Positions 7,113 through 51,895 of a stretch of DNA of 64,000 bases are shown here, piece after piece. The notes beneath the pieces are model-generated. The model ran no database searches, was not told the origin of the DNA, and worked only from the letters and a program-made list of their open reading frames with translations. Numbering within the stretch: position 1 is the stretch's first letter; the number at the start of each line of letters is the position of its first letter. Position numbers and translations under genes: made by a program. Source of the DNA: Sphingomonas cavernae (lineage in GTDB: Bacteria > Pseudomonadota > Alphaproteobacteria > Sphingomonadales > Sphingomonadaceae); assembly GCF_003590775.1 (NCBI RefSeq), contig NZ_QYUM01000004.1, positions 744,001 to 808,000 on the forward strand, read 5' to 3'.

Positions 7113-7195
7113 GAGCACCCCGGCGAAGGCCGGGGTCCAGGAGTCACACGCGACAGAGCCTGCCACGCTGGACCCCGGCCTTCGCCGGGGTACTC
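7113..7195. repeat. Palindromic repeat (CCCCGGCGAAGGCCGGGG type)
   Basis: The arms GAGCACCCCGGCGAAGGCCG and CGGCCTTCGCCGGGGTACTC are inverted over about 80 bases, with CCAGGAGT and CGCTGGAC at the inner edges. A second copy lies at 41746-41828. The right arm ends only 8 bases before the kinase ATG, leaving no recognisable Shine-Dalgarno site for that gene. Confidence 0.82.
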
Positions 7196-13557: not shown

Positions 13558-14197
13558 GCAGCTTCTCCGCACGAGCACGCCAGCTCGTCGCAAGCTGATC
13601 CATCAGGGCGAGTTCGCGCAAGGCCGCGGGCTCGCCCTTGCCTTTTCCGGCAACGAGCAGCCCGAACACACGTTCGACGCTCCATTGCGGAAACCGGCGC
13701 TCGACCAGCGCCAGCATGTCGCCCGCAGCAACCTCGCCTTCCTCGATCACGCGATAATACCAGCCGCTGCGCCGCGTCTTGACGACGGTGGCGGGTACGG
13801 TCGCGATGCCGAAGCGGTGGCCGAGCTTCCAGCACGGCTGGCGGCCCTGGCTGATTTCGACGAGCGCGGTGCCGAGCCGGTAGCGGTCGCCGATGCAGGC
13901 TTCGCCTTCAATGAGCCCTTCGGTCGAAATATTCTCGCCAAATGCCCCCGCACCATCGAGCAGCGCGTGCCCGTCGAGCGTTTCACGCCAGAAGCCGTAA
14001 TGGTCGCGCGGATAATGATGGATCGCCTTGTCGGGGCCGCCGTGAACCGAAAGATCGGCCTGCTCGTCGCCCTCTATGCCGAGGAAACCGACGCGGCGGA
14101 CGCCATCGACGCGCGCCTTGGCGATTGCGCTCGGCTCGCCCTTGTCGCCAAAGACGCGCGCCTTGCCGGTCAGCACTGCGTCAATCGCGAAGCTCAT
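13550..14197 (-). CDS. MOSC domain protein (YiiM-like)
   Basis: A 215-residue protein with a MOSC domain, the sulfur-carrier domain of molybdenum-cofactor sulfurases. It has the typical segments [23 protein letters not shown] and GENISTEGL and the conserved cysteine in GRQPCWKL. YiiM-type proteins reduce N-hydroxylated compounds with molybdenum cofactor, but function here is unproven. Its ATG overlaps the stop of the upstream acyl-CoA synthetase remnant (ATGA), and its 3' end overlaps the convergent beta-oxidation gene. Confidence 0.85.
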
Positions 14198-15740
14198 CGC
14201 TCCAGCCTTTCGCGCAGCTCGCGCTTCAGGATCTTGCCGATCTCGCTGCGCGGCATCGCGTCGATGACATGGACGGCGGAGAGCCGCTGCGTCTTGCCCA
14301 GTTGCGCATTGGCGAACTGTCGCAGCGCATCGGGATCGGGCGAGCGCCCCCGCTCCGCGACGACGAAGCCCACCGGCGTCTCGCCCCAGTCCTCCGACGG
14401 CGCACCGACCACCGCGGCCTCGGCGACATCGTCATGCGCCATCAGCGCCTCCTCCAGATCCCCCGGATAGACGTTGAAGCCACCCGAGATGATCATGTCT
14501 TTGGCGCGGCCGAGGAGTGTCAGAAAGCCGTCCTCGTCGAACGCCCGATGTCGCCCGTGCGGATGAAGCGATTGCCTTGGTCATCGAACCATTCGGCCTC
14601 GCGCGTCTGGTCGGGCTTGTTGTGATAGCCCGTCATCATCGCTTCGGAGCGACCGACGACCTCGCCCTTCTCGCCCGGCGGGAGCTCATTTCCGGCAGCG
14701 TCGATCACGCGGATATCGTGCCCCGGCGCGGGCCGGCCGACGGTGTCGAGCTTGTCGGGGTGTTCGTGCGCAAGCAGGATGCAGGTCCCGCCGCCCTCGG
14801 TCATGCCATAATATTCGACGAGCCCGCCGGGCCAGCGCGCAAGAATATCTGCCTTGAGCGCCGCAGAGAAGGGCGCGCTGGTGCATAATTTCACGCGATA
14901 GGACGAGAGATCGAAATCGCCGAAATCCGCGCGCTCCATCAGCCGCTTGTACTGGACGGGGACGAGCATCGCGTGCGTCACGCGCTCGGCGTGCGACAGT
15001 TCGAGAAAGCGGCGCGCATCAAACTTGCCCATGATCACAGCGGTGCCGCCGTGCGCGAGCGTGGGCACGAACGCGACGAGCGTGGTGTTGGAATAGAGCG
15101 GCGTCGAGATCAGCGTCACCGCGTCACGGCCATAGCCCGACGCGCCCGCGCGGCGGATGTGTCCCCAGCGCATGCGGTGCGACTGGACGATGCCCTTGGG
15201 GCTGCCCGTGGTGCCGCTCGAATAGATGATATTGAAGGGATCATCGGGCCCCACGGCTACGGGCGCTGGTTCGACGCCCTCGTCCTCCACCCACCCTTCA
15301 AGCGGCGTCCCCGCGCTGCTGAGGTCGAGCGGGATCAGGTCGATTTCCTTCGGCAATTCGATGCCAGCAAGCGTCCCGGCCATGCCCGCATCGAGGAACA
15401 GATGCCGGCTCCCGCAATCCGCGATCATGCCGCCGAGCGCGGCAGGCGCGGCGGAGGCGGTCAGCGGCGTTGCCGCCCCGCCCGCGCGCAGCGCACCCAG
15501 AAAGACGAGCGCATAGTGGACCGAGGGCGTCGCGCCGATCGCGACTGCCTGTCCCGGTTTCAGGCCATCGCGCTGTAGCGAGGCAGCGATCCGGTCGACC
15601 CATTGATCGGCCTCGGCATAGCTCAACCGCCGGTCATCATCGACCAGCGCGATCGCGTCGGGGCGTTCGGCCGCCTGCGCCGCAAAGAGGTCCGAAAGGA
15701 GCGCGAAGTCGCTGTCGAGCATGGCCTGTGCGGTCGTCAT
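14194..15740 (-). pseudogene. AMP-binding acyl-CoA synthetase interrupted by a frameshift
   Basis: The gene encodes a fatty-acid CoA ligase of about 510 residues in two frames. The upstream part (15740 to about 14541) has the AMP-binding motif YSSGTTGSPKG and ends in RTGDIGR. The expected continuation FDEDGFLTLLGRAKDMIISGG is present one frame over and runs to 14194, with the catalytic lysine in SEIGKILKRE. Losing one A in the plus-strand run near 14540 explains the shift. Both halves are otherwise intact, so the mutation is recent, or it is a sequencing error. It is coupled to the MOSC gene and would activate an acid for the neighbouring CoA pathway. Confidence 0.8.
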
Positions 15741-15859
15741 GGATCAGGGCTTATCGCAATGCGCCGTACGATCAACCCATGTGGGGGACTAGCGGCGGTA
15801 CTGGGCCTTCCTATATCCTCAGCCGGGTGTGGAGCGTAACCCCGGTACGGGAGAACAAC

Positions 15860-16576
15860 ATGGCAATCGACCTTTATTACTGGCCGACCCCCAATGGCTG
15901 GAAGATCACCATCGCGCTCGAGGAGATGGGCCTTCCCTACAAGATCCACACCGTCAACATCGGCACAGGCGAGCAGTTCGAGCCCGATTTCCTGAAGATC
16001 AGCCCCAATAACCGCATGCCCGCGATCGTCGATCCGCACGGTCCCGACGAGCACCCGATCTCGGTCTTCGAGAGCGGCGCGATCCTGCTTTATCTCTCGC
16101 GCAAGACCGGGCTGTTCGGCGGCGCCAACCTGCGTGAGCGCGCCGAGATCGAGAGCTGGCTGATGTGGCAGATGGGCGGGCTCGGCCCCATGTCGGGCCA
16201 GGCGCACCATTTCCGCAACTATGCGCCGAAGATCGAGCCTGATCCCGCCAAGCTGGAATATGGTGCTCAACGCTACACCAACGAGGTCAACCGGCTCTAT
16301 GGCGTGCTCGACAGCCGCCTCGCCGACCGCGAGTTCGTCGCCGGCGATCTCTCCATAGCCGACTTCGCGATCTGGCCGTGGATCCTCCCCGAGGGTCAGG
16401 GTCAGGATCTCGACGATTTCCCTGATCTGAAACGCTGGCACGCGCTGTGTGGCGCGCGCGAGAGCTTCATCAAGGGCAAGGCCGTCGGCGAAGAACTGCG
16501 CAAGCCTCTCGACGCCGACAGCGAAGAGGCTGAGAAGGCGCGGCAGGTGCTCTTTGGCCAGACGGCGCGCGCCTGA
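15860..16576 (+). CDS. yfcG: Nu-class glutathione S-transferase (YfcG-like)
   Basis: A 238-residue cytoplasmic glutathione transferase. The N-terminal thioredoxin-like domain has TPNGWKITIALEEMGLPY and ISPNNRMPAIVD, and the ESGAILLYL segment binds the glutathione gamma-glutamate; the helical domain contains DLSIADFAIWPW. The TPNG motif is that of the nu-class (YfcG/YghU) enzymes, which have disulfide reductase activity. GGGAGAA precedes the ATG at 15860; the longer open frame upstream is antisense to the acyl-CoA synthetase. The gene is divergent from that synthetase. Confidence 0.88.
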   Translation: MAIDLYYWPTPNGWKITIALEEMGLPYKIHTVNIGTGEQFEPDFLKISPNNRMPAIVDPHGPDEHPISVFESGAILLYLSRKTGLFGGANLRERAEIESWLMWQMGGLGPMSGQAHHFRNYAPKIEPDPAKLEYGAQRYTNEVNRLYGVLDSRLADREFVAGDLSIADFAIWPWILPEGQGQDLDDFPDLKRWHALCGARESFIKGKAVGEELRKPLDADSEEAEKARQVLFGQTARA

Positions 16577-16637
16577 TCGGCGGACGCGGCGCACAAGGGG
16601 TTTCCAGCAGGCGGCAACCCCCCTACAGCCTCGCCCC

Positions 16638-17870
16638 ATGAGCGCCGCGTCCTCCACCCCCACCATCCCCCTCTCCTCCTTCTCGGCCGCTGCGATCGCC
16701 GCGCTCGTCGGTTTTGGCGGCACCGTCGTGCTCGTCGTCCAGGCGGGACAGTCGATCGGCGGGTCGGCGGCGCAGATCGGGTCGATGGTCACAGCGCTCT
16801 GCCTCGGCATCGCCATCGCTGGCGCGGGGCTGAGCTATCGGTTGCGCATGCCCGTGGTGCTCGCCTGGTCGACACCGGGCGCGGCGCTGATCGCGGCAAG
16901 CAGCACGGGTGCGAGCTGGCCCGTCGCGATCGGAGCCTTTGTCGCAGCGGCGGCGATGATGACGCTGCTCGGCCTCATCCCCGCGCTCGGCCGGCTCGCC
17001 GCGCGGATCCCCGCCCCGGTCGCATCGGCGATGCTCGCGGGAATCCTGCTCCCCTTCTGCCTTGCGCTGTTCCAAACCTTTCAGTCGGACGCAGTGCTTG
17101 CGGGGCTGCTGCTCGTCATCTTCGTCGTCGCGCGCCAGAAATTTCCGGCCTATGCGCTGCTGATCGTGCTCGTCGCCGCGATCGCGCTGGTGATCGGGCG
17201 CGGCGACATCGCGCCCCATGACGGCGGCACGCTGTTCGGCGGGATGAGCGCGACGCTGCCGCAATTCGACTGGCGCGCGATCGTCAGTCTCGGCGTGCCG
17301 CTGTTCCTCGTCACGCTCGTCTCGCAGAACCTGCCGGGCTTCGTCGTGCTGCGCTCGGCGGGCTACGAACCGCCCTCACAACCGATCCTGTTCGTCACCG
17401 GCCTCGCCTCGCTGCTGCTCGCGCCCTTCGGCGCGCACAGCGTCAACCTCGCCGCGATTACCGCCGCGATCTGCACCGATGCCGATGCGCACCCCGATCC
17501 CGCGCGCCGCTGGGTCGTCGGGATGATCTATGCGGGCTTCTATGTGCTGCTGGCGGCGTTCGCGGTGCCGCTGGTCGGACTGTTCATGGCGATGCCGCGC
17601 GAGACGGTGGCGGCGATCACGGGGATTGCGCTGATCGGCCCGCTGGTCAACGCGCTGGGCGGAATGCTCGCCGAGCCCGCCGATCGCGAGCCCGCAGTGC
17701 TGACCTTCGCGGCCACCGCATCGGGCATGACGCTGCTCGGTGTCGGTTCGGCCTTTTGGGGGCTTGTCGCGGGGTTCCTCGCGCTGGGCGTTCGCCGGCT
17801 GTTTCAGCCGATGCCTTCGATCCAGTCCGCAAGCTCGCCCAGCGCCGACAGCTCCGCAAAACGCGGGTGA
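16638..17870 (+). CDS. benE: BenE-family benzoate/H+ symporter
   Basis: A 410-residue membrane protein with about 12 helices. It matches BenE transporters by the segment GLSYRLRMPVVLAWSTPGAAL and the later FGAHSVNLAAITAAICT. BenE proteins import aromatic acids, benzoate in the known case. The ATG at 16638 fits the family start; only a weak ribosome site is visible. The last 67 bases overlap the convergent HAD phosphatase gene. No benzoate dioxygenase is adjacent. The anthranilate-type operon 23 kb away could supply a use for an aromatic acid importer, which is speculation. Confidence 0.82.
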   Translation: MSAASSTPTIPLSSFSAAAIAALVGFGGTVVLVVQAGQSIGGSAAQIGSMVTALCLGIAIAGAGLSYRLRMPVVLAWSTPGAALIAASSTGASWPVAIGAFVAAAAMMTLLGLIPALGRLAARIPAPVASAMLAGILLPFCLALFQTFQSDAVLAGLLLVIFVVARQKFPAYALLIVLVAAIALVIGRGDIAPHDGGTLFGGMSATLPQFDWRAIVSLGVPLFLVTLVSQNLPGFVVLRSAGYEPPSQPILFVTGLASLLLAPFGAHSVNLAAITAAICTDADAHPDPARRWVVGMIYAGFYVLLAAFAVPLVGLFMAMPRETVAAITGIALIGPLVNALGGMLAEPADREPAVLTFAATASGMTLLGVGSAFWGLVAGFLALGVRRLFQPMPSIQSASSPSADSSAKRG

Positions 17871-18496
17871 TCCGCGGGGGCGTCCGCCGCCTCATGCGCC
17901 CAGACCAGCGGATAGGGGATGAGCGCTGCCCAGCTTCCTGCCTCCAATGCAGGCAGCACGTCCGAACGCACGGAATTGCCCGCCATCACCGCGTTCTCCG
18001 CCGCATCATGCCGCGCGAAGATGCGCGCATAGACATCGGCGGTCTTCTCGCTGACGATCTCGACGCCCGAGAAGAACGAACCCAGTCCCGAGGCTGCGAG
18101 CTTCTGTTCCTGATGGAAAAGGTCACCCTTGGTGATGAGCACCAGCTTCGCGCGGCCGGCAAGCGTCTCGAGCGCATCCTCGACGCCCGGCAACGGCTCG
18201 ATCGGATGCCGCATCATCTCGCGCCCCGCCGACAGGATTTCGGCGAGTACTTCGGCAGGCACCCGCCGGTCGCTGACCTCGAGCGCGGTTTCGAGCATCG
18301 AAAGCGTGAAGCCCTTGGCGCCATAGCCATAGATCGTAAGATTGCGCCGCTCGACCGCGGCCTGATGCGCCTCGATCGCCTCGGGTTCCGCGAAATCGCC
18401 GAGCAGTTCGTTGAACCGCGCATGCGTCATGCGGAAGATGGTTTCGTTGTGCCAAAGCGTGTCGTCGGCATCGAGACCGATGATCGAGATGGGCAT
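17804..18496 (-). CDS. HAD-family phosphatase
   Basis: A 230-residue haloacid-dehalogenase-like hydrolase. The nucleophile motif DADDT is at residues 9-13, motif II is VLITKGD, and the C-terminal motif includes VMAGNSVRSDVLPALEAG. The cap arrangement is that of the YjjG/phosphoglycolate-phosphatase group, usually nucleotide or sugar phosphate phosphatases. The start is placed at 18496 (MPISIIGLD). The 3' end overlaps the convergent benE gene by 67 bases. Confidence 0.83.
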   Translation of the reverse strand: MPISIIGLDADDTLWHNETIFRMTHARFNELLGDFAEPEAIEAHQAAVERRNLTIYGYGAKGFTLSMLETALEVSDRRVPAEVLAEILSAGREMMRHPIEPLPGVEDALETLAGRAKLVLITKGDLFHQEQKLAASGLGSFFSGVEIVSEKTADVYARIFARHDAAENAVMAGNSVRSDVLPALEAGSWAALIPYPLVWAHEAADAPADHPRFAELSALGELADWIEGIG

Positions 18497-18625
18497 GACG
18501 CGACTCCAATACGGCGGGAGCGCCGCGATACTCCCTCGATCCGGGGTGGGGCAAGGCACAGTTCGATGCCTTGCTCAAGTCCGGTCGGAATATGTTGTCG
18601 CCGTTCGGTCAGCGGCGGCGTTGAT

Positions 18626-18931
18626 TTACGCTATCCGGAACAGACGAAGCGGCTTGCTGTGCGGTTGGCGCCCGATCAGTCCCTTTGCCTCGAGATCGAG
18701 CTGAACCCCTTTCAGCCACCAGCCCGCCTTGGCGCCGCCGGGAAATAAGGCATCGGGCAGCAGTGGCAGCACGCCGACTTTCAGTTCTGCAACAGACATT
18801 CCCGGCGTAGCAGCGGGCAAAACGGCGAGGATCGCCGAACGCATCGCCGCATATTTGTCGCCATCCACGCGAACGGAGCGGCCCGGCGTATTGACGTTTT
18901 CCATCGCAACCCTGGCAGCATTGTCGGCCAT
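18626..18931 (-). CDS. Small conserved protein of DUF6958 type
   Basis: A 101-residue protein ending in a compact conserved region with FPGGAKAGWWLKGVQLDLEAKGLI, which I associate with the DUF6958 family from memory. Nothing about its biochemistry is known to me. The ATG overlaps the TAA of the GFA gene by one base (TAATG), so the pair is coupled. Both genes sit behind a palindromic operator shared with a divergent TetR regulator. Confidence 0.7.
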   Translation of the reverse strand: MADNAARVAMENVNTPGRSVRVDGDKYAAMRSAILAVLPAATPGMSVAELKVGVLPLLPDALFPGGAKAGWWLKGVQLDLEAKGLIGRQPHSKPLRLFRIA

Positions 18932-19467
18932 TACGCCGCCTCGATCGGCTGGAGCCTGGGTGCCCGAAACCCCATCGCCGCCCAGGCCACGAACAGCCGC
19001 CACATGAACTTGACCGAATGGGTCTTGTAAGTCGGCAGCGCGTCTTCGAAAACAGCGCTGGCGCGTCGATCGCCGGCCATCACCCTCATCTCGACCGGTG
19101 GTGCATCGGGCCCTAGCCGCTCGCGATAGAGTGAAAGCCAGTGGCCGCCGGCGAACTCAAGGAACATGGGCGTATCGCAGCAGCGCGCCAGCACGCGTCG
19201 CGTGGAGGCCTCAGGCGTCAGTCGATGTTCACGCAGCAGCGCATCGCCCTCGGCAAACGCGACGCGGTCCTTGCGGTGCAGGACGAACGCCGTGCCGCCA
19301 TCGGCATCGAGGACGTCGGACATGCCGGACAGTCTCTGGAATCCGGCCCCCGCCTCCTGACAGCTCTTGCAATAGCAGATCGCTGTTATGATCGGCGCGC
19401 CCAGTATTCTGAGCTTCACTTCGCCGCAACGGCAGGACGCCGTGGGTGTCACTTGATCAGAAGCCAT
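18931..19467 (-). CDS. GFA (CENP-V) family zinc protein
   Basis: A 178-residue protein of the glutathione-dependent formaldehyde-activating (GFA) family. The zinc cysteines are visible in CRCGEVKL and ICYCKSCQ, with a further pair in LARCCDTPMF. The start is placed at 19467 behind GGAGGG; an ATG at 19479 is an alternative. The family contains formaldehyde-glutathione enzymes but also many proteins of unknown role. It forms a two-gene operon with the DUF6958-type gene and is probably repressed by the TetR protein encoded divergently at 19534. Confidence 0.82.
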   Translation of the reverse strand: MASDQVTPTASCRCGEVKLRILGAPIITAICYCKSCQEAGAGFQRLSGMSDVLDADGGTAFVLHRKDRVAFAEGDALLREHRLTPEASTRRVLARCCDTPMFLEFAGGHWLSLYRERLGPDAPPVEMRVMAGDRRASAVFEDALPTYKTHSVKFMWRLFVAWAAMGFRAPRLQPIEAA

Positions 19468-32733: not shown

Positions 32734-32985
32734 CGGGTCGGTCCTCCTTGACGGCGCACGGTTCGGCGGCGGCAGGCCATGACGATGCCGGCTACGCTGC
32801 CCGTACCGCAATTTTACGCGCAATAGCATAGGATGGCGAGATTTTTCCGATGCGCTCCTGCGCCGCCTCTCTGCCGGTCATTGCCTCATATCACCGGCTC
32901 GATGTTCGACTGCGGCGATACCAATGATCTGGGCGACGCCCTGACCGATGCGCTAAGGGGGCCTTCTGCTGATCAGGAGGCATAT

Positions 32986-34113
32986 GTGCTGTTGAACGAG
33001 ACCCAGACCGCCATCCGCGACGCCGTACGCGATTTCGCGCAGGCCGAGCTGCGACCGAATTCTGCCGAATTTGAGCGGGCCGGGGGCTATCCGCCCGAAT
33101 TGTTCACCCAGCTCGCAGACCTCGGCCTCATGGGCATGATCGCCCCCGAATCGGCGGGAGGCGTCGGGGCCGACTATGTCTCCTATGCGCTCGTGCTGAT
33201 GGAACTCGCGGCGGGCGACGGCGCATTGTCGACCATCGTCTCGATCCAGAACAGCCTGATCGTCTCTGGCATCATCAAGGATGGGACGCCCGAGCAGCAG
33301 GCGCGTTTCCTGCCCGATCTGATCGCGGGCAAATGCATCGGCGCCTTCGCGCTCACCGAAACCGATGCGGGATCGGATGCTTCGGCGATCCGCACGCGCG
33401 CGACGAAGACCGACGGCGGATATATCCTCAACGGCGCCAAGCAATTCATCACCTCGGGCAAGATCGGCGGGCTGGCGATGGTGATCGCGGTGACCGACCC
33501 CGATGCCGGCAAGCGCGGCATCTCGGCCTTTCTCGTTCCCACCGACCGGCCGGGCTATTCGGTCGACAAGGTCGAGCACAAGATGGGCCAGGGCGCGTCG
33601 GACACCTGCGCGATCCGCTTCGAGGACGTGTTCATCGAAGATGATCTCCGCCTCGGCGCGGAGGGCGAAGGTTATCGCATCGCGCTCTCCAATCTGGAAG
33701 CGGGGCGCATCGGCATCGCCGCGCAGTGCGTCGGCATGGGGCAGGCCGCGCTCGATATCGCGGTCGGCTATGCCAAGGAGCGCAAGAGCTTTGGCCAGCC
33801 GATCATCCAGCATCAGGCGGTTGGCTTCCGCCTGGCCGATCTGGCGGCAAAGCTTGAGGCCGCGCGACAGCTCGTGCTCTCGGCCGCAGCGATGAAGGAT
33901 GGCGGCCTGCCCTGCCTCACCCAGGCCTCCATGGCCAAGCTCGTCGCCTCGGAAACCGCCGAGGCCGTGTGCTCGGGCGCGATCCAGACGCTTGGGGGCT
34001 ATGGCTATCTCGAGGAGTTCGGCGTCGCAAAGATCTACCGCGACGTCCGCGTCTGCCAGATTTACGAGGGCACGTCGGACATCCAGCGGCTGGTCATCGC
34101 GCGCGCGCTGTGA
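32986..34113 (+). CDS. Acyl-CoA dehydrogenase, short/branched-chain type
   Basis: A 375-residue dehydrogenase. Signatures are FALTETDAGSDAS, the flavin segment ITSGKIGGLAMVIAVT, and the C-terminal YEGTSDIQRLVIARAL with the usual base-bearing loop. A GTG at 32986 is chosen because AGGAGG stands five bases before it and the family length (about 375-385) then fits; the frame is open to an ATG at 32833, but that leader has no family match. It feeds electrons to ETF. It is not obviously in an operon; its end is 4 bases from a convergent gene. Confidence 0.88.
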   Translation: MLLNETQTAIRDAVRDFAQAELRPNSAEFERAGGYPPELFTQLADLGLMGMIAPESAGGVGADYVSYALVLMELAAGDGALSTIVSIQNSLIVSGIIKDGTPEQQARFLPDLIAGKCIGAFALTETDAGSDASAIRTRATKTDGGYILNGAKQFITSGKIGGLAMVIAVTDPDAGKRGISAFLVPTDRPGYSVDKVEHKMGQGASDTCAIRFEDVFIEDDLRLGAEGEGYRIALSNLEAGRIGIAAQCVGMGQAALDIAVGYAKERKSFGQPIIQHQAVGFRLADLAAKLEAARQLVLSAAAMKDGGLPCLTQASMAKLVASETAEAVCSGAIQTLGGYGYLEEFGVAKIYRDVRVCQIYEGTSDIQRLVIARAL

Positions 34114-40275: not shown

Positions 40276-40541
40276 CGGTCGTCTCCCCTGCACGCCGCGT
40301 CTATCTACGTCCGGTGTTGGCCGCCGACGCAAGACCCCTTCGGGTACCGGATGCTATCAAGAACGGACCCATTCTAAAAGCCGGAAAAATAACCCCTACG
40401 TCTTGACTTCCGCCCGTTTTTTTTGCGCCGGGCCAATGCGTTTTCTTCATTCAGAATGGCACCGGGTCAGGCATGCAACCCATCTTCCTTCCCTTTGAAT
40501 CAAGCCATTGCTTTAATCCTAAAATAAAATAACCTTGGACT

Positions 40542-41276
40542 ATGACGCAGCAGCCTGCACGTGTGCTGGTGACCGGGGGCGCGACGGGAATCGGGCTCGC
40601 CATCGCCCGCGCCTTCCGTGCGGCGGGCCACGACGTGATGATCGCGGGCCGCGACAGCGCACGGCTGGAAGCAAGCGGTTTCGCGCACCTCGCCTTCGAC
40701 GTCTGCGACGAAATGGCGGTCGCAGAGGCCCTGCGCGCCGCCGGGCCGATCGACATCTTCGTGGCCAATGCCGGCGGGGTCGTGACTGCGCCCGTCCTCA
40801 CGACCAGCCGGGAAGACTGGGAGCGCATGCTGCACCTCAATCTGACCAGCGTCTGGCTCTGCGCGCGCGCAGCGGTGCCGCCGATGATCGAACGCGGATG
40901 GGGCCGCTTCATCGCCGTCGCATCAACCGCCGCGCTCAAAGGCTATGCCTATGCCGGAGCCTACGCCGCCGCCAAGCACGGCGCTCTCGGACTGGTGCGC
41001 TCGCTCGCGCTCGAGCTTGCCCAGACCGGCGTCACCGCGAACGCGATCTGCCCGGGCTATACCGACACGCCGATGCTGCGCGACGCGATCGACAAGGTAG
41101 TCGACAGAACCGGTCGGTCAGCCGAAGACGCCGCCAGCTTCTTCACCAAGGCCAACCCCATGCGCCGCCTCGTCGCCGCAGAGGAGGTCGCGGGCGCCGC
41201 GCTCTGGCTGGCGAGCGATGCGGCCGCTTCGGTCAACGGCCAGGCGATCGCTATCGACGGCGGAGAAACCGCATGA
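40542..41276 (+). CDS. Short-chain dehydrogenase in the 2-aminobenzoyl-CoA-type operon
   Basis: A 244-residue SDR with TGGATGIG at the cofactor site and YAAAK active-site residues, ending AIDGGETA. It is the first gene of a seven-gene operon and overlaps the MarR start by four bases. The upstream 40 bases are AT-rich, as in a promoter, but no strong ribosome site is seen. In this pathway the product could be a reductase or dehydrogenase for the alicyclic ketone or hydroxy-CoA intermediates. Confidence 0.87.
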   Translation: MTQQPARVLVTGGATGIGLAIARAFRAAGHDVMIAGRDSARLEASGFAHLAFDVCDEMAVAEALRAAGPIDIFVANAGGVVTAPVLTTSREDWERMLHLNLTSVWLCARAAVPPMIERGWGRFIAVASTAALKGYAYAGAYAAAKHGALGLVRSLALELAQTGVTANAICPGYTDTPMLRDAIDKVVDRTGRSAEDAASFFTKANPMRRLVAAEEVAGAALWLASDAAASVNGQAIAIDGGETA

Positions 41277-41839
41277 CCGACGATCGCGATACACTGCGCG
41301 CCTGGCTCCACCTTCTCGGCACCGCCAACGCAATCAAGAAGGGCGTCGACACGCGCCTCCGCCAGCGTTTCGGCACCTCGATCTCGCGCTTCGACGTGCT
41401 CGCCGCGCTCGACCGCGCCGATGACGAAGGGCTCACCGCGGGCGGCCTCACCGCATATCTCAAGGTCACCGAAGGCAACACCACGCAGGTTACCGCACCG
41501 CTGATCCAGACCGGGCTCGTCCAGCGCACGGTCAGCCCGCGCGACGGCCGCGTCGCGATCTTCCGCCTTACGACCAAGGGCCGGCAGCTCTTCGCGGCGA
41601 TGGCCGAGGAAAACCGCCGCTGGATCGACGACGCCTTTTCGCGGCTCGCTCCCACCGAGATCGCCCAGCTCCGCACGCTGCTCGCGGCGATCGAGCCGCC
41701 GAGCATCGGTCCTGAGCCAGTTCCGCAAGGGCCGACCCCGCCTTCGAGTACCCCGGCGAAGGCCGGGGTCCAGGGTGGCAGGTCGCAGCACCCAGTGACT
41801 CCTGGACCCCGGCTTTCGCCGGGGTACCGCCAGATCTAG
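41273..41839 (+). CDS. MarR-family regulator of the operon, with repeat-derived tail
   Basis: A 188-residue winged-helix regulator ([15 protein letters not shown] pattern; recognition region [16 protein letters not shown]; wing [11 protein letters not shown]). Residues from about 158 to the end ([11 protein letters not shown] onward) are encoded by a palindromic repeat and are foreign to the family. It starts ATGA-coupled to the SDR. MarR proteins in this cluster type are expected to bind an aromatic acid or its CoA ester and relieve repression. Confidence 0.85.
41746..41828. repeat. Palindromic repeat (CCCCGGCGAAGGCCGGGG type) in the 3' end of marR
   Basis: Same family as 7113-7195: the left arm GAGTACCCCGGCGAAGGCCG and the right arm GGCTTTCGCCGGGGTACCGC are inverted. 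The element begins about 90 bases before the MarR stop and is read through as coding sequence. Confidence 0.82.
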
Positions 41840-41852
41840 GCAAGGAAGCCGC

Positions 41853-42662
41853 ATGAACCCCGAAACCTTCAGCCCGAGCGAGTTTAGCTGGACCTTCGAT
41901 CGGGGCGTCGCGCGGATCGCGCTCGACCGCCCCGAGCGAAAGAACCCGCTCACCTTCCAGTCCTACGCCGAACTCCGCGACACCTTCCGCGCGCTGGTCT
42001 ACGCAAGGTCCGTGAAGGCGGTCGTGTTCGGCAGCCAGGGCGGCAATTTCTGCTCGGGCGGCGACGTCCACGACATCATCGCGCCGCTCACGAAGATGTC
42101 GATGCCTGAGCTGCTCGATTTCACCCGGATGACGGGCGATCTGGTAAAGGCCATGCGCGGCTGCCCCCAGCCGATCATCGCCGCAGTCGACGGGGTCAGC
42201 GTCGGTGCGGGCGCGATCATCGCCATGGCCTCGGACATTCGCTACGCCACCCCCGAGGCAAAGACCGCCTTCCTCTTCAACCGCGTCGGGCTCGCGGGCT
42301 GTGACATGGGCGCCTGCGCCATCCTTCCCCGTATTATCGGCCAGGGCCGCGCAAGCGAGCTGCTCTTCTTCGGCCGCAGCTTCACCGCGGAAGAGGGCAA
42401 AGCGTGGGGCTACTTCAACGACGTCGTGCCCGCCGACAGGCTCGAATCCCATGCCATGGACGCGGCGCGGAAACTGGCCGCAGGCCCCAGCTTCGCCAAC
42501 GGCATCACCAAGAACCAGCTCAACATGGAATGGGACATGAGCCTCGACACCGCGATCGAGGCCGAGGCGCAGGCGCAGGCGATCTGCATGCAGACCCGCG
42601 ACTTCGAGCGCGCCTACCGCGCCTTCGCGGCCAAAGAGCAACCCGTGTTCGAGGGCGACTGA
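41853..42662 (+). CDS. Crotonase-family ring hydrolase candidate (BadI/MenB-like active site)
   Basis: A 269-residue crotonase-fold enzyme. The oxyanion segment GNFCSGGD is present, but the two catalytic glutamates of enoyl-CoA hydratases are absent: by eye their positions hold I122 and R144. Instead D151 in [10 protein letters not shown] aligns with the GSFDGG aspartate of MenB, and BadI-type enzymes that hydrolyse 2-ketocyclohexanecarboxyl-CoA have a similar site. It may therefore open the alicyclic ring formed in this pathway. It lies 13 bases after marR, and the downstream gene starts 2 bases after its stop. Confidence 0.85.
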
Positions 42663-42664
42663 TC

Positions 42665-43084
42665 ATGGTGGAGAGCCCCGACCGGACGATCCTCCAGCCC
42701 CCCGGATGGCCGCGCCCCAAAGGCTATGCCAACGGCATCGCGGCGCGCGGGCGGCTGGTCTTCACCGCGGGCGTCATCGGCTGGAGCGCCGACGAAATCT
42801 TCGAACACGCCGATCTTGCCGGTCAGTTCCGGCAGGCGCTCATCAACACCCGCGCCATCCTCGCCGAGGGCGGCGCCGAGCCCGCCCACATCGTCCGCAT
42901 GACCTGCTACGTCACCGACAAGCGCGAATACGCCGCCAGTCGCGCCGCGATCGGCGAGGCATGGCGCGAGGTGCTGGGCAAGGTCTTCCCCTGCATGGCG
43001 GTGGTCGAAGTGAAGGGGCTGGTCGAGGACGCGGCAAGGATCGAGATCGAGACCACCGCGGTGGTGCCGGAGGAAGACCGGTGA
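42665..43084 (+). CDS. RidA-family protein with altered active site
   Basis: A 139-residue RidA/YjgF-fold protein. The family core is GRLVFTAGVIGW, the NTRAILAEGGA region and VVEVKGLVEDAARIEIETTAV. In canonical RidA deaminases an arginine before this last strand binds the substrate carboxylate; here the aligned position is M111 (FPCMAVVEV). The substrate may thus lack a free carboxylate, as a CoA thioester does. It starts at 42665, and the next gene starts inside its stop (GTGA). A role in hydrolysing the enamine made by the monooxygenase-reductase is proposed. Confidence 0.85.
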   Translation: MVESPDRTILQPPGWPRPKGYANGIAARGRLVFTAGVIGWSADEIFEHADLAGQFRQALINTRAILAEGGAEPAHIVRMTCYVTDKREYAASRAAIGEAWREVLGKVFPCMAVVEVKGLVEDAARIEIETTAVVPEEDR

Positions 43085-45462
43085 AGATCGCGGTCATCGG
43101 CGGCGGGCCTGGCGGGCTCTATTTCGCGCTGCTGACCAAGAAGCGGCTGCCCGACTGCGAGATCCACGTCTATGAGCAGAACCGCGCCGACGACACCTTC
43201 GGCTTCGGCGTGGTCTTCTCCGACGAAACGCTCGACGAGTTCCTGAGCGCCGACCCCGAATCCTACGAGATGATCCGCGCCAGCTTCGCCTATTGGGACG
43301 ACATCATCGTCGACCATCAGGGCAACCGCACCACGGTCGGCGGCAACGGCTTTGCAGGCTGCTCGCGCCAGACCTTGCTGGGGCTGCTCCAGCGCCGCTG
43401 CGCCGCGCTCGGCGTCAACCTTCATTATTCGACGCGGATAGACCCTGCCGGGATCGAAACCCGCTTCGCCGACCATGATCTCGTCGTCATAGCCGACGGC
43501 GCCAACAGCCCCGTCCGCGCGCACCATGCCGAGGCCTTCGGCGCGCGCGCGATCGAGGCGCGCAACAAATTCTGCTGGCTCGGCTCCAGCCGCCCGCTCG
43601 ACGCCTTCACTTTCTTTTTCGTGGCCACCGACAAGGGCCATTTCTGCGCGCACACCTATCAATATGAGCGCGGCCATTCGACCTGGGTGATCGAGACGAC
43701 GCCCGAGACGTGGGACGCGCATGGCTTTGCCCATATGAGCGAGGAAGAAAGCGCGCGCGTGCTCGAGACCATCTTCGCCGAGCCGCTCGCGGGCCATCCC
43801 TTCATCACCAATCGCTCGATCTGGCGCAATTTCCACACGATCAGTTGCGCGTCATGGCGGCTCGGCAAGATGGTGCTGCTGGGTGACGCCAAGGCGACCG
43901 CGCACTGGTCGATCGGCTCGGGCACCAAGCTCGCCATGGAGTGCGCGGCCGCGCTCTCGGACGGCGTGGTCGCGAATGGCACCGACCTCGACGCCGTCAC
44001 CACCGACTATGAGCGCACCCGCCGAACCCCCGTCGAGATCACGCAACACAATGCGCAGGTCTCGCTCCGCTGGTTCGAGGACCTGCCCAGGCACTGGAGC
44101 AAGGAGCGCTTCGAATTCGCCTTCTCGCTGATGTCGCGCGCCAAGGCGCTCACCTGGGACAATATCGCGCTGCGCGACAAGGCCTTCCTCACCCAGGTCG
44201 AGGACGAGTTCTACGCGCGCTACCGGCGTGCGACCGGCCGCGACGCGTCGGTCGATCGCCCCACGCCGATGTTCACCCCCTTCGACGTGCGCGGCCTCAC
44301 CCTCCCCAACCGCGTCGTCATGGCCCCGATGGCGCAGTACAGCGCGGTTGAGGGCGACATCACGCCCTGGCACTTCACGCACTACACGTCGCGCGCGCTC
44401 GGCGGCGCCGGGCTCGTCTTCACCGAGATGACCTGCCCCACCCCCGATGCGCGCATCACCACCGCCTGCACGGGCCTGTGGAGCGACGCGCAGGAGCAGG
44501 ACTGGAAGGCCATCGTCGATTTCATCCACGCGACCACCCCGGCCAGGGTCGCGATGCAGCTTGGCCATGCCGGCCGCAAGGGTTCCACCAAGGTGCCCGA
44601 GTTTGGCATGGATCAGCCGATGGAGTCGGGCAACTGGCCGATCTACTCGGCCTCGCCGCTCCCATATTTCGACAATATCTCCGACATCCCGATCGAGCTC
44701 GACCGCGCCCGGATGGACGAGATCCGCGACAGCTTCGTGGCCTCGACCCGTCGCGCCGCGCGCGCGAGCTTCGACTGGCTCGAGCTGCACACGGCGCATG
44801 GTTATCTGCTGGCGAGCTTCCTCTCCCCGCTCACCAACCGGCGCAGCGACTCCTACGGCGGCAGCGTGCAGAACCGCGTCCGCTTCCCGCTCGAGGTCTT
44901 CATGGCGATGCGCGAGGCATGGCCCGCCGATCGCCCCATGTCGGTCCGCCTCTCAAGCGCCGACTGGGCCGAAGGCGGATTGCCGCTCGAAGACTTGACC
45001 CTGATCTGCCGCGCCTTCAAGCAGGCGGGCGTCGACATCATCCACGCCTCGTCGGGCCAGACGGTGCCGTGGCAGAAACCCGTCTATGGCCGCATGTGGC
45101 AGACGCCCTTTGCCGAATATATCCGCCTGACCGCGGGAATCCCCACGATCGCGGTCGGAGACATCACGTCGCCTGAACAGATCAACACGATCATCGCCGC
45201 CGGTCGAGCCGACCTTTGCGCGCTCGCGCGGCCGATGCTCAACGATCCCTTTTTCGCGCGCCAGGCCGCCGGGCATTACGGGGTCCGGAGCGCCTGCGGC
45301 GTCCCGCTCGGCTGGCCCGAACAGATGCGCACCGCCGAATATCAGCTCTACCGTGAGGCCCAGAAGGCGAACGACAAGAACGCCGAGCTCAACGCCAAAG
45401 CGCGTCCCGTCCGCCGTCACGACCAGCGCGCCGCAGACCCCGAGGAGAAGCTCTATGGATGA
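43081..45462 (+). CDS. Bifunctional 2-aminobenzoyl-CoA (salicylyl-CoA 5-hydroxylase-type) monooxygenase/reductase
   Basis: A 793-residue fusion. Residues 1-390 are a flavin monooxygenase with IAVIGGGPGG at 3-12 and VLLGDAKATAHWSIGSG at 265-281; from about 397 an old-yellow-enzyme domain has APMAQYS at 414-420 and the substrate histidines H570 and H573 (ELHTAHGYL). The known homologue hydroxylates 2-aminobenzoyl-CoA and then reduces the ring to 2-amino-5-oxocyclohex-1-enecarboxyl-CoA. It may also take salicylyl-CoA; databases use that name. A GTG start overlaps the RidA stop, and the ligase ATG lies within its last codons. Confidence 0.9.
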   Translation: MKIAVIGGGPGGLYFALLTKKRLPDCEIHVYEQNRADDTFGFGVVFSDETLDEFLSADPESYEMIRASFAYWDDIIVDHQGNRTTVGGNGFAGCSRQTLLGLLQRRCAALGVNLHYSTRIDPAGIETRFADHDLVVIADGANSPVRAHHAEAFGARAIEARNKFCWLGSSRPLDAFTFFFVATDKGHFCAHTYQYERGHSTWVIETTPETWDAHGFAHMSEEESARVLETIFAEPLAGHPFITNRSIWRNFHTISCASWRLGKMVLLGDAKATAHWSIGSGTKLAMECAAALSDGVVANGTDLDAVTTDYERTRRTPVEITQHNAQVSLRWFEDLPRHWSKERFEFAFSLMSRAKALTWDNIALRDKAFLTQVEDEFYARYRRATGRDASVDRPTPMFTPFDVRGLTLPNRVVMAPMAQYSAVEGDITPWHFTHYTSRALGGAGLVFTEMTCPTPDARITTACTGLWSDAQEQDWKAIVDFIHATTPARVAMQLGHAGRKGSTKVPEFGMDQPMESGNWPIYSASPLPYFDNISDIPIELDRARMDEIRDSFVASTRRAARASFDWLELHTAHGYLLASFLSPLTNRRSDSYGGSVQNRVRFPLEVFMAMREAWPADRPMSVRLSSADWAEGGLPLEDLTLICRAFKQAGVDIIHASSGQTVPWQKPVYGRMWQTPFAEYIRLTAGIPTIAVGDITSPEQINTIIAAGRADLCALARPMLNDPFFARQAAGHYGVRSACGVPLGWPEQMRTAEYQLYREAQKANDKNAELNAKARPVRRHDQRAADPEEKLYG

Positions 45463-47014
45463 AGGCGCGCCGGTCTTTCCCGATGCGTTCAACATGGCGG
45501 ACTATTTCGTGTTCGCCAATCTGGAGGCCGGTCGCGGCGACAAGCCCGCAATCCTGTTCGAGGGCCGCACGATCACCTATGCCGAGGTCGCGCGCAACGT
45601 CGAGCGCGTCGCGCACCGCCTGCTCAGCGACGGCCTTCTCCCCGAGCAACGCGTGCTGCTCTGCATGCGCGACTGCCCCGAATTCGTCTATGCATGGTTC
45701 GGCGCGTTGAAGGCGGGCGCGGTCGTCACCCAGATCAACCCGCTGCTGCCCGAAACCGACTACCGCTATTATCTCGGCTATGTGAAGCCGCAATTCGCCT
45801 TCATCGACGAGGCGAGCCTCGCGGCCTTCGGCGCCGCGGCAGCCGAATCCCGCCACGGCAGCAACGTCATCCTCGTCGGCGAGGACGCAACCTTCGCCGG
45901 TTTTGACGACTGGCTCGCGCGCGACATCGCGCCGGGCACCAAGCCTTGGCCCACGCGCAAGGACGACCCCGCCGTCTGGCTCTTCACCAGCGGCACGACG
46001 GGACAGAGCAAGGGCGCGGTCCACTGCCATTTCCATTTCGCCTACAACACCGAAGTCTACGCCCGGCGCTTCATCGGCGTCCACGAGGACGATGTGACGC
46101 TCTCGGGTCCGCGCCTCTTCTTCGGCTACGCGACAGGCACCAACCTCATGTTCCCCTTCGCGGTCGGCGCAACCACCATCCTCTTCCGCGATCCCCCCAC
46201 CGCCCAGTGCCTCTTCGACCAGATCGAGCGCCACCGCCCGACGATCCTCACCAACGTCCCCACGCTCATCAACAAGATGCTCGAAGCCGATGGCACGCGC
46301 CCCGACCTGTCGAGCCTCCGCTTCATGTGGAGCGCGGGTGAGGCGCTGCCGCGCGAGCTCCACGAACGTTGGGACCGCGCCTTCGGCGTCCCCATCATCG
46401 ACGGGATCGGCAGCGCCGAGAGCTTTCACATCTATATCAGCAACCGCCCCGACGACATTCGCCCCGGCAGTCTCGGCAGGCTCGTGCCCGGCTATGAGGC
46501 GCGGCTGATCGACGACGAAGGCCAGCCCGTCGAGCAGGGCGATATCGGCACGCTCTGGATCGGCGGCGATTCCGCCGCGCTCTACTATCACGGCGACTAC
46601 GCCAAATCGAAGGAGCATCTGCGCGGCGGGTGGATCGTGAGCGGGGACAAGTTCCGGCAAGACGCCGATGGCTATTGGCATTATGAAGGGCGCGGCGACG
46701 ACCTCATCAAGAGCGGCGGCATCTATGTAAGCCCGATCGAGGTCGAGAACTGCCTGACGCGGCACGAAGCCGTAAGCGAATGCTGCGTCGTGGGCCGCAA
46801 GGACGCTGCCGGGCTCGAAAAGCCCGTTGCCATCGTCGTGCTCAAGGCCGGGATCGAGAAATCCGGCACGCTGGAGGCAGAGTTGATCGATTTTTCGAGA
46901 CAGCATCTCGCCCGATACAAGGCGCCGCACCGAATTCTGTTCGCAGACGCCGCGCTGCCACGCAATGATCGCGACAAGATCGACCGCAAGGCCTTGAAGG
47001 CGCGCGTCGCATGA
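45455..47014 (+). CDS. Benzoate/2-aminobenzoate-CoA ligase family protein
   Basis: A 519-residue AMP-forming ligase. The phosphate loop LFTSGTTGQSKGAVH, the GSAESFHIYISN motif and the catalytic lysine near the C-terminus (RNDRDKIDRKAL) are intact, and the sequence is of the benzoate-CoA-ligase subfamily (PDAFNMADYFV start). It would activate an aromatic acid, probably 2-aminobenzoate, for the monooxygenase encoded upstream. It starts at 45455 behind GAGGAGAAG, and its stop overlaps the creatininase start by four bases. Confidence 0.9.
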   Translation: MDEGAPVFPDAFNMADYFVFANLEAGRGDKPAILFEGRTITYAEVARNVERVAHRLLSDGLLPEQRVLLCMRDCPEFVYAWFGALKAGAVVTQINPLLPETDYRYYLGYVKPQFAFIDEASLAAFGAAAAESRHGSNVILVGEDATFAGFDDWLARDIAPGTKPWPTRKDDPAVWLFTSGTTGQSKGAVHCHFHFAYNTEVYARRFIGVHEDDVTLSGPRLFFGYATGTNLMFPFAVGATTILFRDPPTAQCLFDQIERHRPTILTNVPTLINKMLEADGTRPDLSSLRFMWSAGEALPRELHERWDRAFGVPIIDGIGSAESFHIYISNRPDDIRPGSLGRLVPGYEARLIDDEGQPVEQGDIGTLWIGGDSAALYYHGDYAKSKEHLRGGWIVSGDKFRQDADGYWHYEGRGDDLIKSGGIYVSPIEVENCLTRHEAVSECCVVGRKDAAGLEKPVAIVVLKAGIEKSGTLEAELIDFSRQHLARYKAPHRILFADAALPRNDRDKIDRKALKARVA

Positions 47015-47763
47015 AGCTCGGCGACGCGCCCTGGACAGCCATTCGCGACGCGCTGGCGACCGGCGAGCCCGTTGTCGCCATCCTGCCGTGCGGCGCGGTC
47101 GAGGCGCATGGTCCACATCTTCCGCTGGCGACCGACGTCATCATCAGCGACGGCATGGCGGATCGCGCCGCAGCCATGCTCGAGACGCAAGGCATTCGCG
47201 CCTTCGTCCTGCCCGCGCTTGCCTTTGCGCCCGCCAATTATGCGGCAGCGTTCGCGGGCACCATTTCGATCAGCACCGCGGCCGCGAAGGCGGTGCTGAT
47301 CGACATTGCCAAGTCCCTGCGCGAACAGGGCTTCGCCTGCCTCGCCATCGCCAACAGCCATTTCGATCCCGCCAATGTCGCAATGCTGCGCGAGGCGGCT
47401 GCCGAGATCGGCGCGCTTGGGCTCGCGGTGGCCTATCCCGACTTCACCCGCCGCGCGCTGGCAAGCCGGTTGACCGAGGAATTCGTGTCAGGCGCCTGTC
47501 ATGCCGGACAATTCGAGACGAGCCTGGTGATGGCCGATCGGCCCGAGCTCGTCGACGAAAGCCGGCGCAGCGCGCTCGAAGAAAACCCGTCCAGCCTCGT
47601 CGAGGCATTTGCGCGCGGTGCGACAAGCTTCGCTGAGGCCGGCGGACCACACGCCTATTTCGGCGCCCCGCGGTCCGCGACGGCGGCGGAAGGCGAGCAA
47701 AGCTTCGAGCGGATGGCGGAGGCCCTTGCAAACGCCGTTCACGAGGCACTCGCTCTCGCGTAG
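47011..47763 (+). CDS. Creatininase-family amidohydrolase
   Basis: A 250-residue protein of the creatininase fold. Metal ligands are visible as E31, H33 and D42 in GAVEAHGPHLPLATD, and in CHAGQFETS near residue 165; the usual NGHGGN is altered to NSHFDPAN. Creatininases hydrolyse cyclic amides. It is the last gene of the operon, coupled by an ATGA overlap. It could act on an amide or lactam side product, or remove nitrogen, but no reaction is known for it here. Confidence 0.82.
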   Translation: MKLGDAPWTAIRDALATGEPVVAILPCGAVEAHGPHLPLATDVIISDGMADRAAAMLETQGIRAFVLPALAFAPANYAAAFAGTISISTAAAKAVLIDIAKSLREQGFACLAIANSHFDPANVAMLREAAAEIGALGLAVAYPDFTRRALASRLTEEFVSGACHAGQFETSLVMADRPELVDESRRSALEENPSSLVEAFARGATSFAEAGGPHAYFGAPRSATAAEGEQSFERMAEALANAVHEALALA

Positions 47764-51145: not shown

Positions 51146-51895
51146 ATGGGCGTGGAACATGTGGTCGTCGTGACGGGCGGAGCGTCGGGAATGGGTCTCG
51201 GCATCAGCAAGCGCTTCGCGGAGAACGGTCATCCCGTCGCGATGCTCGATGTGCAGGAAGACGCGCTGGAGCGGGAAGGTGCTGCGCTTCGGGCGAGCGG
51301 TGCACGGATATTCACGCGAAAGGTCGACGTTTCTCGCCGGGAGGAAGTCGACGCCGCCTATGCCGCGGTGAGGGGGGAGCTTGGCCCGATCAGCATCGTG
51401 ATCGCCAACGCCGGGATCTCCAGAGCGGAGGATTTCGCTTCAATGCCGCTCGCGACGTGGCAACGCATGATCGACGTAAACCTGACGGGCGTCTTCCACA
51501 CGATCCAGTCGGCCGTTGCGGACATGATCGAACAGAAATGGGGCCGGATCGTCACGATCTCTTCAAATGCCGCGCAATGGGGCGCATCGGACCGCGCGCA
51601 TTACGCGGCCTCGAAAGGCGGCGTGATCGGGCTGACCAAGGCGCTCGCGCGCGAACTGGCGAGGCACGGCATCACCGCCAACACCATCCCGCCCTCGCTG
51701 GTCGATACGCCCCTTGCGCGCCAGGGCGTGGCGGCAGGCGAAGTTCCGCCCATCGAAGTCATCGCCCAGCACATCCCGATCGCGCGCGCCGGAACGCCCG
51801 ACGACATCGCCGACGCCTGCGAATTCCTCTGCTCGGACAAGGCATCCTACATCACGGGGCAGGAAATCAACGTGAACGGCGGAATCTATATGTAA
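51146..51895 (+). CDS. Short-chain dehydrogenase next to P450
   Basis: A 249-residue SDR: TGGASGMG at the N-terminus, SNAAQWG strand and YAASK active site, ending EINVNGGIYM. GGAGGGTCGG precedes the ATG. It shares direction with the P450 and is the best candidate for its coupled dehydrogenase. The C-terminus is complete, and the next gene is convergent. Confidence 0.87.
   Translation: MGVEHVVVVTGGASGMGLGISKRFAENGHPVAMLDVQEDALEREGAALRASGARIFTRKVDVSRREEVDAAYAAVRGELGPISIVIANAGISRAEDFASMPLATWQRMIDVNLTGVFHTIQSAVADMIEQKWGRIVTISSNAAQWGASDRAHYAASKGGVIGLTKALARELARHGITANTIPPSLVDTPLARQGVAAGEVPPIEVIAQHIPIARAGTPDDIADACEFLCSDKASYITGQEINVNGGIYM

Follow-up and report, generated by a model that had tools for sequence, protein, structure and literature searches.

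A Rid-family protein lacking the arginine of active Rids as candidate enamine hydrolase in a 2-aminobenzoyl-CoA operon of Sphingomonas cavernae

In a 64,000-nucleotide stretch of the Sphingomonas cavernae genome (assembly GCF_003590775.1, contig NZ_QYUM01000004.1, positions 744,001 to 808,000; hereafter the window), we analysed a seven-gene operon that belongs to a known type, the aerobic 2-aminobenzoyl-CoA (anthranilate-CoA) pathway of Azoarcus evansii and Arthrobacter Rue61a, in a variant form. It encodes a short-chain dehydrogenase/reductase (SDR), a MarR regulator, a crotonase, a Rid-family protein, a fusion of an FAD monooxygenase with an old yellow enzyme (OYE)-type reductase, an aromatic acid-CoA ligase and a creatininase-family protein. 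A sequence-only reading had proposed that the Rid protein hydrolyses an enamine, the crotonase opens the ring and the SDR acts on the alicyclic ketone. We found that the Rid protein co-occurs with the fusion across genomes, that it carries methionine where active Rids carry arginine, and that the crotonase lacks the glutamates of a hydratase. These three observations are new here, and through such comparative data the two enzyme assignments are now testable. That the operon handles anthranilate-CoA is very probable, and the whole scheme, with Rid as enamine hydrolase and crotonase as ring opener, appears from sequence a shade better than even.

The distribution of the two proteins was compared in two groups of genomes. 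At phylum-level thresholds of E <= 1e-100 for the fusion and E <= 1e-25 for the Rid clade, both were present in one and the same set of 25 genomes (S. cavernae included) among 200 from the phylum, and neither in the other 175; one genome (G292) carried each of them twice, in pairs sharing a contig. Across 196 genomes of the order, the fusion was found in 86, Rid in 82 and the crotonase in 81. Fusion and Rid occurred together in 81 genomes, the fusion without Rid in 5 (G040, G065, G096, G178, G186), Rid without the fusion in one and neither in 109; the Rid-only genome (G014) was tallied as such on a weak Rid of 40% identity. The corresponding figures for fusion and crotonase were 80, 6, 1 and 109. 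Fisher tests at order level gave p values of about 1e-46 to 1e-48, which ignore kinship among the genomes and are not to be read as probabilities. The phylum and order groups share some members, and paired searches within one group were assumed to cover the same genomes, in agreement with the handles and tallies.

Gene neighbourhoods were compared as well. One scan found 194 relatives of the fusion, from which 80 loci were kept, 27 from Bacteroidota and 53 from elsewhere, several of the latter truncated where a contig or the fetched flank stops. Rid was encoded in 44 of these 53 loci, the crotonase in 39, an acyl-CoA dehydrogenase in 36, MarR in 34, the SDR in 33, a ligase of the window type in 4 and the creatininase in 3. 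Among the nine loci counted as lacking Rid, one spans only 3.4 kb (L017), one has 2.5 kb upstream (L049), three end inside a Rid-like piece (L045, L051, L052) and two have their crotonase-dehydrogenase end at the locus border (L046, L048); in L028 and L042 no Rid lay within the available flank. The usual order was SDR, MarR, crotonase, dehydrogenase, Rid, fusion, and the crotonase immediately preceded Rid, with no dehydrogenase between them, in the window and in L001, L003, L038, L039, L041, L044 and L053. All seven genes recur in identical order in Sphingomonas changbaiensis (L001), and in S. horti (L002) the same seven stand in order with one extra gene, for acyl-CoA dehydrogenase; the arrangement is therefore not due to chance. 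Rid and crotonase track the fusion, the creatininase is rare, and the acyl-CoA dehydrogenase that most relatives have is absent from the window operon; the sequence-only reading had anticipated neither this absence nor the rarity of the creatininase. The S. cavernae genome gave 26 matches to the L002 dehydrogenase, none above 36% identity. As near orthologues, an acyl-CoA dehydrogenase (32833-34113, 33% identity) and a second SDR (51146-51895, 36% identity) elsewhere in the window were rejected. Other neighbours in the relatives (IorA/IorB-like proteins, an NSS transporter, an alpha/beta hydrolase) were named by reading their sequences and not by family scans.

A contrast to this co-occurrence, likewise not anticipated, came from some fusion relatives that sit with a gentisate-type dioxygenase and lack both Rid and crotonase. 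In G178 and G186 the fusion homologue stands with MarR and a hotdog thioesterase, with a flavin reductase, a carbon-nitrogen (CN) hydrolase and a cupin dioxygenase nearby, and neither genome gave a Rid or crotonase match genome-wide at the thresholds used. The G178 locus additionally holds an FAA hydrolase, and its dioxygenase matches the models for gentisate and 5-aminosalicylate dioxygenases, below both cut-offs. G065 has the fusion, MarR and thioesterase, with no Rid or crotonase and with no dioxygenase identified in the stretch read. Among the Bacteroidota loci, Rid and crotonase were absent from the flanks in 27/27, a thioesterase was present in 26/27 and a cupin dioxygenase cluster in 22/27, its family being assigned via representatives. 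Rid and crotonase are thus missing where a dioxygenase appears to open the aromatic ring. This second gene set (L054-L080, with L100 for G178 and L101 for G186) comprises the fusion homologue, flavin reductase, ligase, hotdog thioesterase, a Nit6803-like CN hydrolase, a gentisate/5-aminosalicylate-type cupin dioxygenase and FAA hydrolase, and in Bacteroidota an Amdase/EutA-like protein. We would guess that it serves a ring-cleavage route through 5-hydroxyanthranilate or gentisate, from which the nitrogen may leave as amide.

For the window operon, we propose that Rid would hydrolyse the beta-enamino thioester to 2,5-dioxocyclohexanecarboxyl-CoA and ammonia. The crotonase, with no hydratase Glu and with an Asp as in PaaG, would then add water to the beta-keto thioester and open the ring between C1 and C2, yielding 4-oxopimeloyl-CoA, or the 4-hydroxy form if the SDR had first reduced the C5 ketone, and general beta-oxidation would complete the pathway. 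An action of the SDR on the alicyclic ketone is doubtful; the protein reached no cut-off among the best 25 of 226 NCBIfam models. In a locus from a Sphingomonas daechungensis record (L106, 6131-16527), genes for methylmalonyl-CoA mutase and a carboxylase subunit come after those for SDR, crotonase, Rid and ligase, which might point to an end product of the propionyl-CoA type.

Of these assignments, that of Rid is of greatest interest, because it would break a published rule. Met111 of the window protein occupies the position at which active Rids have Arg105, and across the clade this residue is Met in 42 of 43 aligned sequences and Ile in one; Met is also found in the Rids of plasmid pAL1, an S. 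daechungensis plasmid, a Deinococcus plasmid and a Comamonas plasmid. An ordinary RidA member was rejected on the absence of the Arg, by which the way of working is not itself rejected. Y21 and E127 were invariant in alignments of 33 and of 43 sequences, and the structure model (predicted local distance difference test, pLDDT, 92.6) has the Rid fold, its best match to Rid structures being at E 5.2e-11. In structures cited in the available text of PMC4433059, the Arg binds a free carboxylate. In our reading, loss of the Arg fits a changed substrate, because a CoA thioester offers no free carboxylate to bind, and the group that this residue holds in other Rids would be absent here, making it dispensable. 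A precedent for the proposed role is RutC, the 3-aminoacrylate deaminase described in the accessible part of PMC8113886, which shares the fold and hydrolyses a beta-enamino acid by what would be the same chemistry; unlike the window protein, for which a CoA thioester is proposed, RutC has and requires its Arg. The Rid4 to Rid7 subfamilies, as far as PMC4433059 was available, resemble the window Rid in that the Arg is replaced and Glu and Tyr are kept, but their residue at this position is Trp in Rid4 and Rid7 and variable in Rid5 and Rid6. We consider it rather probable, judging from the genomic context, that the protein would act as the enamine hydrolase of the anthranilate-CoA pathway. Whether the clade represents a new enzyme type, a dedicated CoA-thioester enamine hydrolase for the nitrogen-releasing step of aerobic anthranilate catabolism, appears evenly balanced.

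The crotonase belongs to NCBIfam family NF006107 (468.1 bits, cut-off 330), which is named only 'enoyl-CoA hydratase family protein'. In all 39 sequences aligned, I122 and F142 replace the two catalytic Glu of hydratases and D151 is invariant. In the alignment, two FadB hydratase domains have Glu, Glu and Gly at these three positions (a third row, the FadB of the window, gave only gaps and was excluded), and D151 aligns with the Asp of the isomerase PaaG. Since both Glu are missing, the protein is probably no hydratase, and this assignment was rejected. BadI/MenB-type crotonases are models for the hydrolytic opening of 2-oxocyclohexanecarboxyl-CoA, the kind of ring opening proposed here; the window protein differs from them in its family and falls below the MenB cut-off (NF005637, 108.6 bits against 380), and no BadI model appeared among the best 25 of its 71 NCBIfam matches. 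The residues fit, without proving, an attack of water on a beta-keto thioester. The earlier claim of a ring opener gains indirect support in that the residues are not those of an ordinary hydratase; ring opening itself stays an inference, which we would put at even chances.

Several points weigh against the scheme as a whole. Rid and fusion lie within 15 kb of each other in only 56 of the 81 genomes of the order that have both, partly because contigs end. The loss of the Arg is common among Rids: only two of the six paralogues aligned from the S. cavernae genome have it (a further one, L113, gave no alignment and was left out). In the published sources, as far as available, the Arg was proposed as both necessary and sufficient for activity, no deaminase activity has yet been demonstrated for Rids without it and the R104A variant of RutC was inactive (PMC8113886), and Rid4 to Rid7, which lack it, were called 'mysterious' and probably not imine hydrolases (PMC4433059). 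The retained Tyr and Glu say little about activity, because one RidA was little affected by their substitution (PMC4433059, available part). The AlphaFold model of the crotonase was poor (pLDDT 69.7, weak at 140-174) and was not used. The ring opener is not fixed either, because the stretch read of pAL1 has a Rid and no annotated crotonase. Finally, the kynureninase of S. cavernae need not supply the operon, because it is clustered with a 3-hydroxyanthranilate dioxygenase.

In a different reading, the enamine hydrolyses spontaneously, Rid has another task such as protecting or partnering the flavoenzyme, the crotonase is a ring double-bond isomerase and the ring opener is encoded elsewhere. 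The lack of any deaminase activity yet reported for an Arg-less Rid agrees with it, as do the Asp shared with PaaG, the gene content of pAL1 and the instability of the enamine product in acid, which is stated in the part available of the published work. A dedicated Rid clade restricted to the same genomes as the fusion at phylum level argues instead for a task tied to this intermediate. Rid is also absent from G178 and G186, whose fusion homologue stands beside a dioxygenase module, and a role as flavoenzyme helper is disfavoured because a helper would be expected there too. We regard this reading as possible though clearly the less probable one. The enamine hydrolase suggested from sequence emerges with strong support in genomic co-occurrence, but without the Arg held necessary for the deaminase activity of Rids, a lack that the sequence-only reading had no means of recognising.

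The creatininase suggests another way for the nitrogen to leave. In such a route the crotonase would cleave the ring at the imine carbon with the nitrogen still bound, and the resulting primary amide would be hydrolysed by the creatininase-like protein. The creatininase gene overlaps the ligase gene, and every occurrence found was in such a locus (the window, L001, L002, L039 and G047, all four relatives having it together with the window-type ligase). It is, however, encoded in just 3 of the 53 loci, where Rid occurs in 44, and in 2 of the 196 genomes of the order, where Rid occurs in 82; we think this route most improbable. Rejected by its rarity as a core step, the creatininase is a rare add-on to the operon. 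It scored 86.7 against a cut-off of 235 for TIGR04448 and 105.7 against 172 for MftE (TIGR03964), and matched the Pfam superfamily model. L039 (5279-12322) lies on a contig labelled Acidobacteria, its ligase and creatininase being 71% and 65% identical to those of the window, suggesting either that the genes moved between phyla or that the contig was misbinned.

The identity of the substrate was weighed separately. The best model for the fusion is NF006101, salicylyl-CoA 5-hydroxylase/oxidoreductase, and public records name the family in the same way, so that salicylate or another 2-substituted benzoate might be the substrate and the fusion a salicylyl-CoA 5-hydroxylase feeding gentisate. The window protein scores 977.7 bits, under the cut-off of 1078, whereas the G178 homologue beside the gentisate-type dioxygenase exceeds it with 1137.8. 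Moreover, the operon has no dioxygenase or thioesterase, and a Rid would be expected for a nitrogen-bearing product and not for salicylate. We therefore hold salicylate to be highly unlikely. The ligase matched TIGR02262 with 459.5 bits against a cut-off of 375.25, as expected for the operon ligase, a score that does not tell the substrate; its nearest solved structures are benzoate-CoA ligases, followed by an anthranilate-CoA ligase, and similarity does not settle the matter either. The fusion unites the monooxygenase and the OYE-type reductase in one protein, as the pathway requires, and the proposal that ligase and fusion form the entry steps matches the described pathway. A stand-alone monooxygenase elsewhere in the genome (L082, C3:138684-139745) resembles the N-terminal half of the fusion at 37% identity; its best NCBIfam models are NF006101 and VioD, both below cut-off.

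Comparison with the known systems places the operon further. By its reported gene list, the A. evansii operon is said to have eight genes, among them a MarR-like regulator, a 'putative translation inhibitor', which we take to be the Rid, and beta-oxidation genes. It shares with the window operon the ligase and the fusion flavoenzyme and, by that list, would also share MarR, Rid and beta-oxidation genes; the window operon, which has MarR, Rid, crotonase and SDR, would differ in having a creatininase in place of an acyl-CoA dehydrogenase and an ABC binding protein. Plasmid pAL1 of Arthrobacter Rue61a (NC_009453) likewise has an assayed anthranilate-CoA ligase, a fusion and a Rid with Met at the Arg position, its ligase and fusion genes being matched to the assayed ligase by gene order. 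In contrast to the window, the 30 kb read carry PaaX regulators, an FAA hydrolase, a cupin and thioesterases, with no annotated SDR or crotonase; at 12137-19050 (L105) Rid, FAA hydrolase, cupin and thioesterase adjoin the ligase and fusion. The FAA hydrolase might there replace the crotonase as ring opener.

That the lower pathway is poorly described was borne out. The 2022 catalogue GapMind, in the text available, left out tryptophan degradation via this enzyme for lack of knowledge. The field is not blank, however: the accessible part of a review (citing Schuhle 2001) gives, for A. evansii, a ligase, the fusion enzyme and then beta-oxidation for the later steps. According to the available text on Rue61a, two ligase genes were demonstrated to encode anthranilate-CoA ligases, and anthranilate-grown cells contained CoA esters of C7H7NO3 and C7H8O4, the latter specific to these cells and read as cyclohexanedione-carboxyl-CoA. 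Our literature search, mostly below full-text level, found no publication that connects 2-aminobenzoyl-CoA with an Arg-less Rid or with this crotonase. These partly available sources concede a gap in the lower pathway and assign no function to the Arg-less Rid subfamilies; the co-occurrence profile joins the two questions and makes an Arg-less Rid a named candidate for a named reaction. If correct, this would be the first activity for Arg-less Rids, and the rule that Arg means deaminase, which would only read the carboxylate of the substrate, would need amending. With a crotonase that is no hydratase opening the ring, the gap left by GapMind would also be closed, and genomes with these genes could be read as those of anthranilate or tryptophan degraders.

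As to the supply of anthranilate, the S. cavernae genome has a kynureninase above its cut-off and a tryptophan 2,3-dioxygenase match somewhat under it (359 against 390.7). Among the 53 non-Bacteroidota relatives, kynureninase homologues adjoin the fusion in 5 loci and a PF04199 cyclase stands beside it in 23. A separate region of the genome (L103, C1:20000-39000) encodes kynureninase, 3-hydroxyanthranilate dioxygenase, an Arg-type Rid, 2-hydroxymuconic semialdehyde dehydrogenase and 4-hydroxy-2-oxovalerate aldolase, by its predicted products a second tryptophan/kynurenine route; after the dioxygenase gene comes one for a class V pyridoxal-phosphate enzyme that weakly matches a kynureninase C-terminus.

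The features of the operon are listed in Table 1. Coordinates and Pfam/NCBIfam matches confirmed the seven genes at 40542-47763 and their families. All lie on the + strand and are tightly packed, with junctions from SDR to creatininase of a 4-base overlap, a 13-base gap, a 2-base gap and overlaps of 4, 8 and 4 bases.

Table 1. Genes and sequence elements of the operon (window positions)
Feature	Position	Strand	Description
TTTAATCCTAAA (TTTA-N4-TAAA dyad)	40512..40523	+	18 bases upstream of SDR start; candidate operator/promoter element
SDR oxidoreductase	40542..41276	+	244 aa; adh_short_C2
MarR regulator	41273..41839	+	188 aa; MarR_2
Palindromic repeat	41748..41827		Two 27-base arms, 96% complementary, 26 bases between
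Crotonase-family protein	41853..42662	+	269 aa; NCBIfam NF006107; proposed ring-opening C-C hydrolase
Rid-family protein	42665..43084	+	139 aa; PF01042; Met111 at Arg position; proposed enamine hydrolase
FAD monooxygenase/OYE-type reductase fusion	43081..45462	+	793 aa, GTG start; FAD_binding_3 + Oxidored_FMN; 2-aminobenzoyl-CoA monooxygenase/reductase (very probable)
Aromatic acid-CoA ligase (benzoate-CoA-ligase family)	45455..47014	+	519 aa; TIGR02262
Creatininase-family amidohydrolase-like protein	47011..47763	+	250 aa; PF02633, 179.7 bits

The dyad TTTAATCCTAAA matched once in the window and never in 100 shuffles. It also precedes the SDR in L001, L002, L014, L015 and L018, 19-90 bases from the tblastn start of the SDR; two more matches, in the Bacteroidota loci L059 and L079, do not stand before an SDR. 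We regard it as a candidate MarR site, and MarR would probably control the operon from there. The flanks that were scanned appear unrelated to the operon, with Ppx/GppA, FtsJ and an outer-membrane protein upstream and a 388-amino-acid protein without Pfam match and a P450 downstream. The copy of the palindromic repeat within the operon encodes the C-terminal tail of the MarR protein, and a second copy lies at window 7118-7190, with 0 expected by chance.

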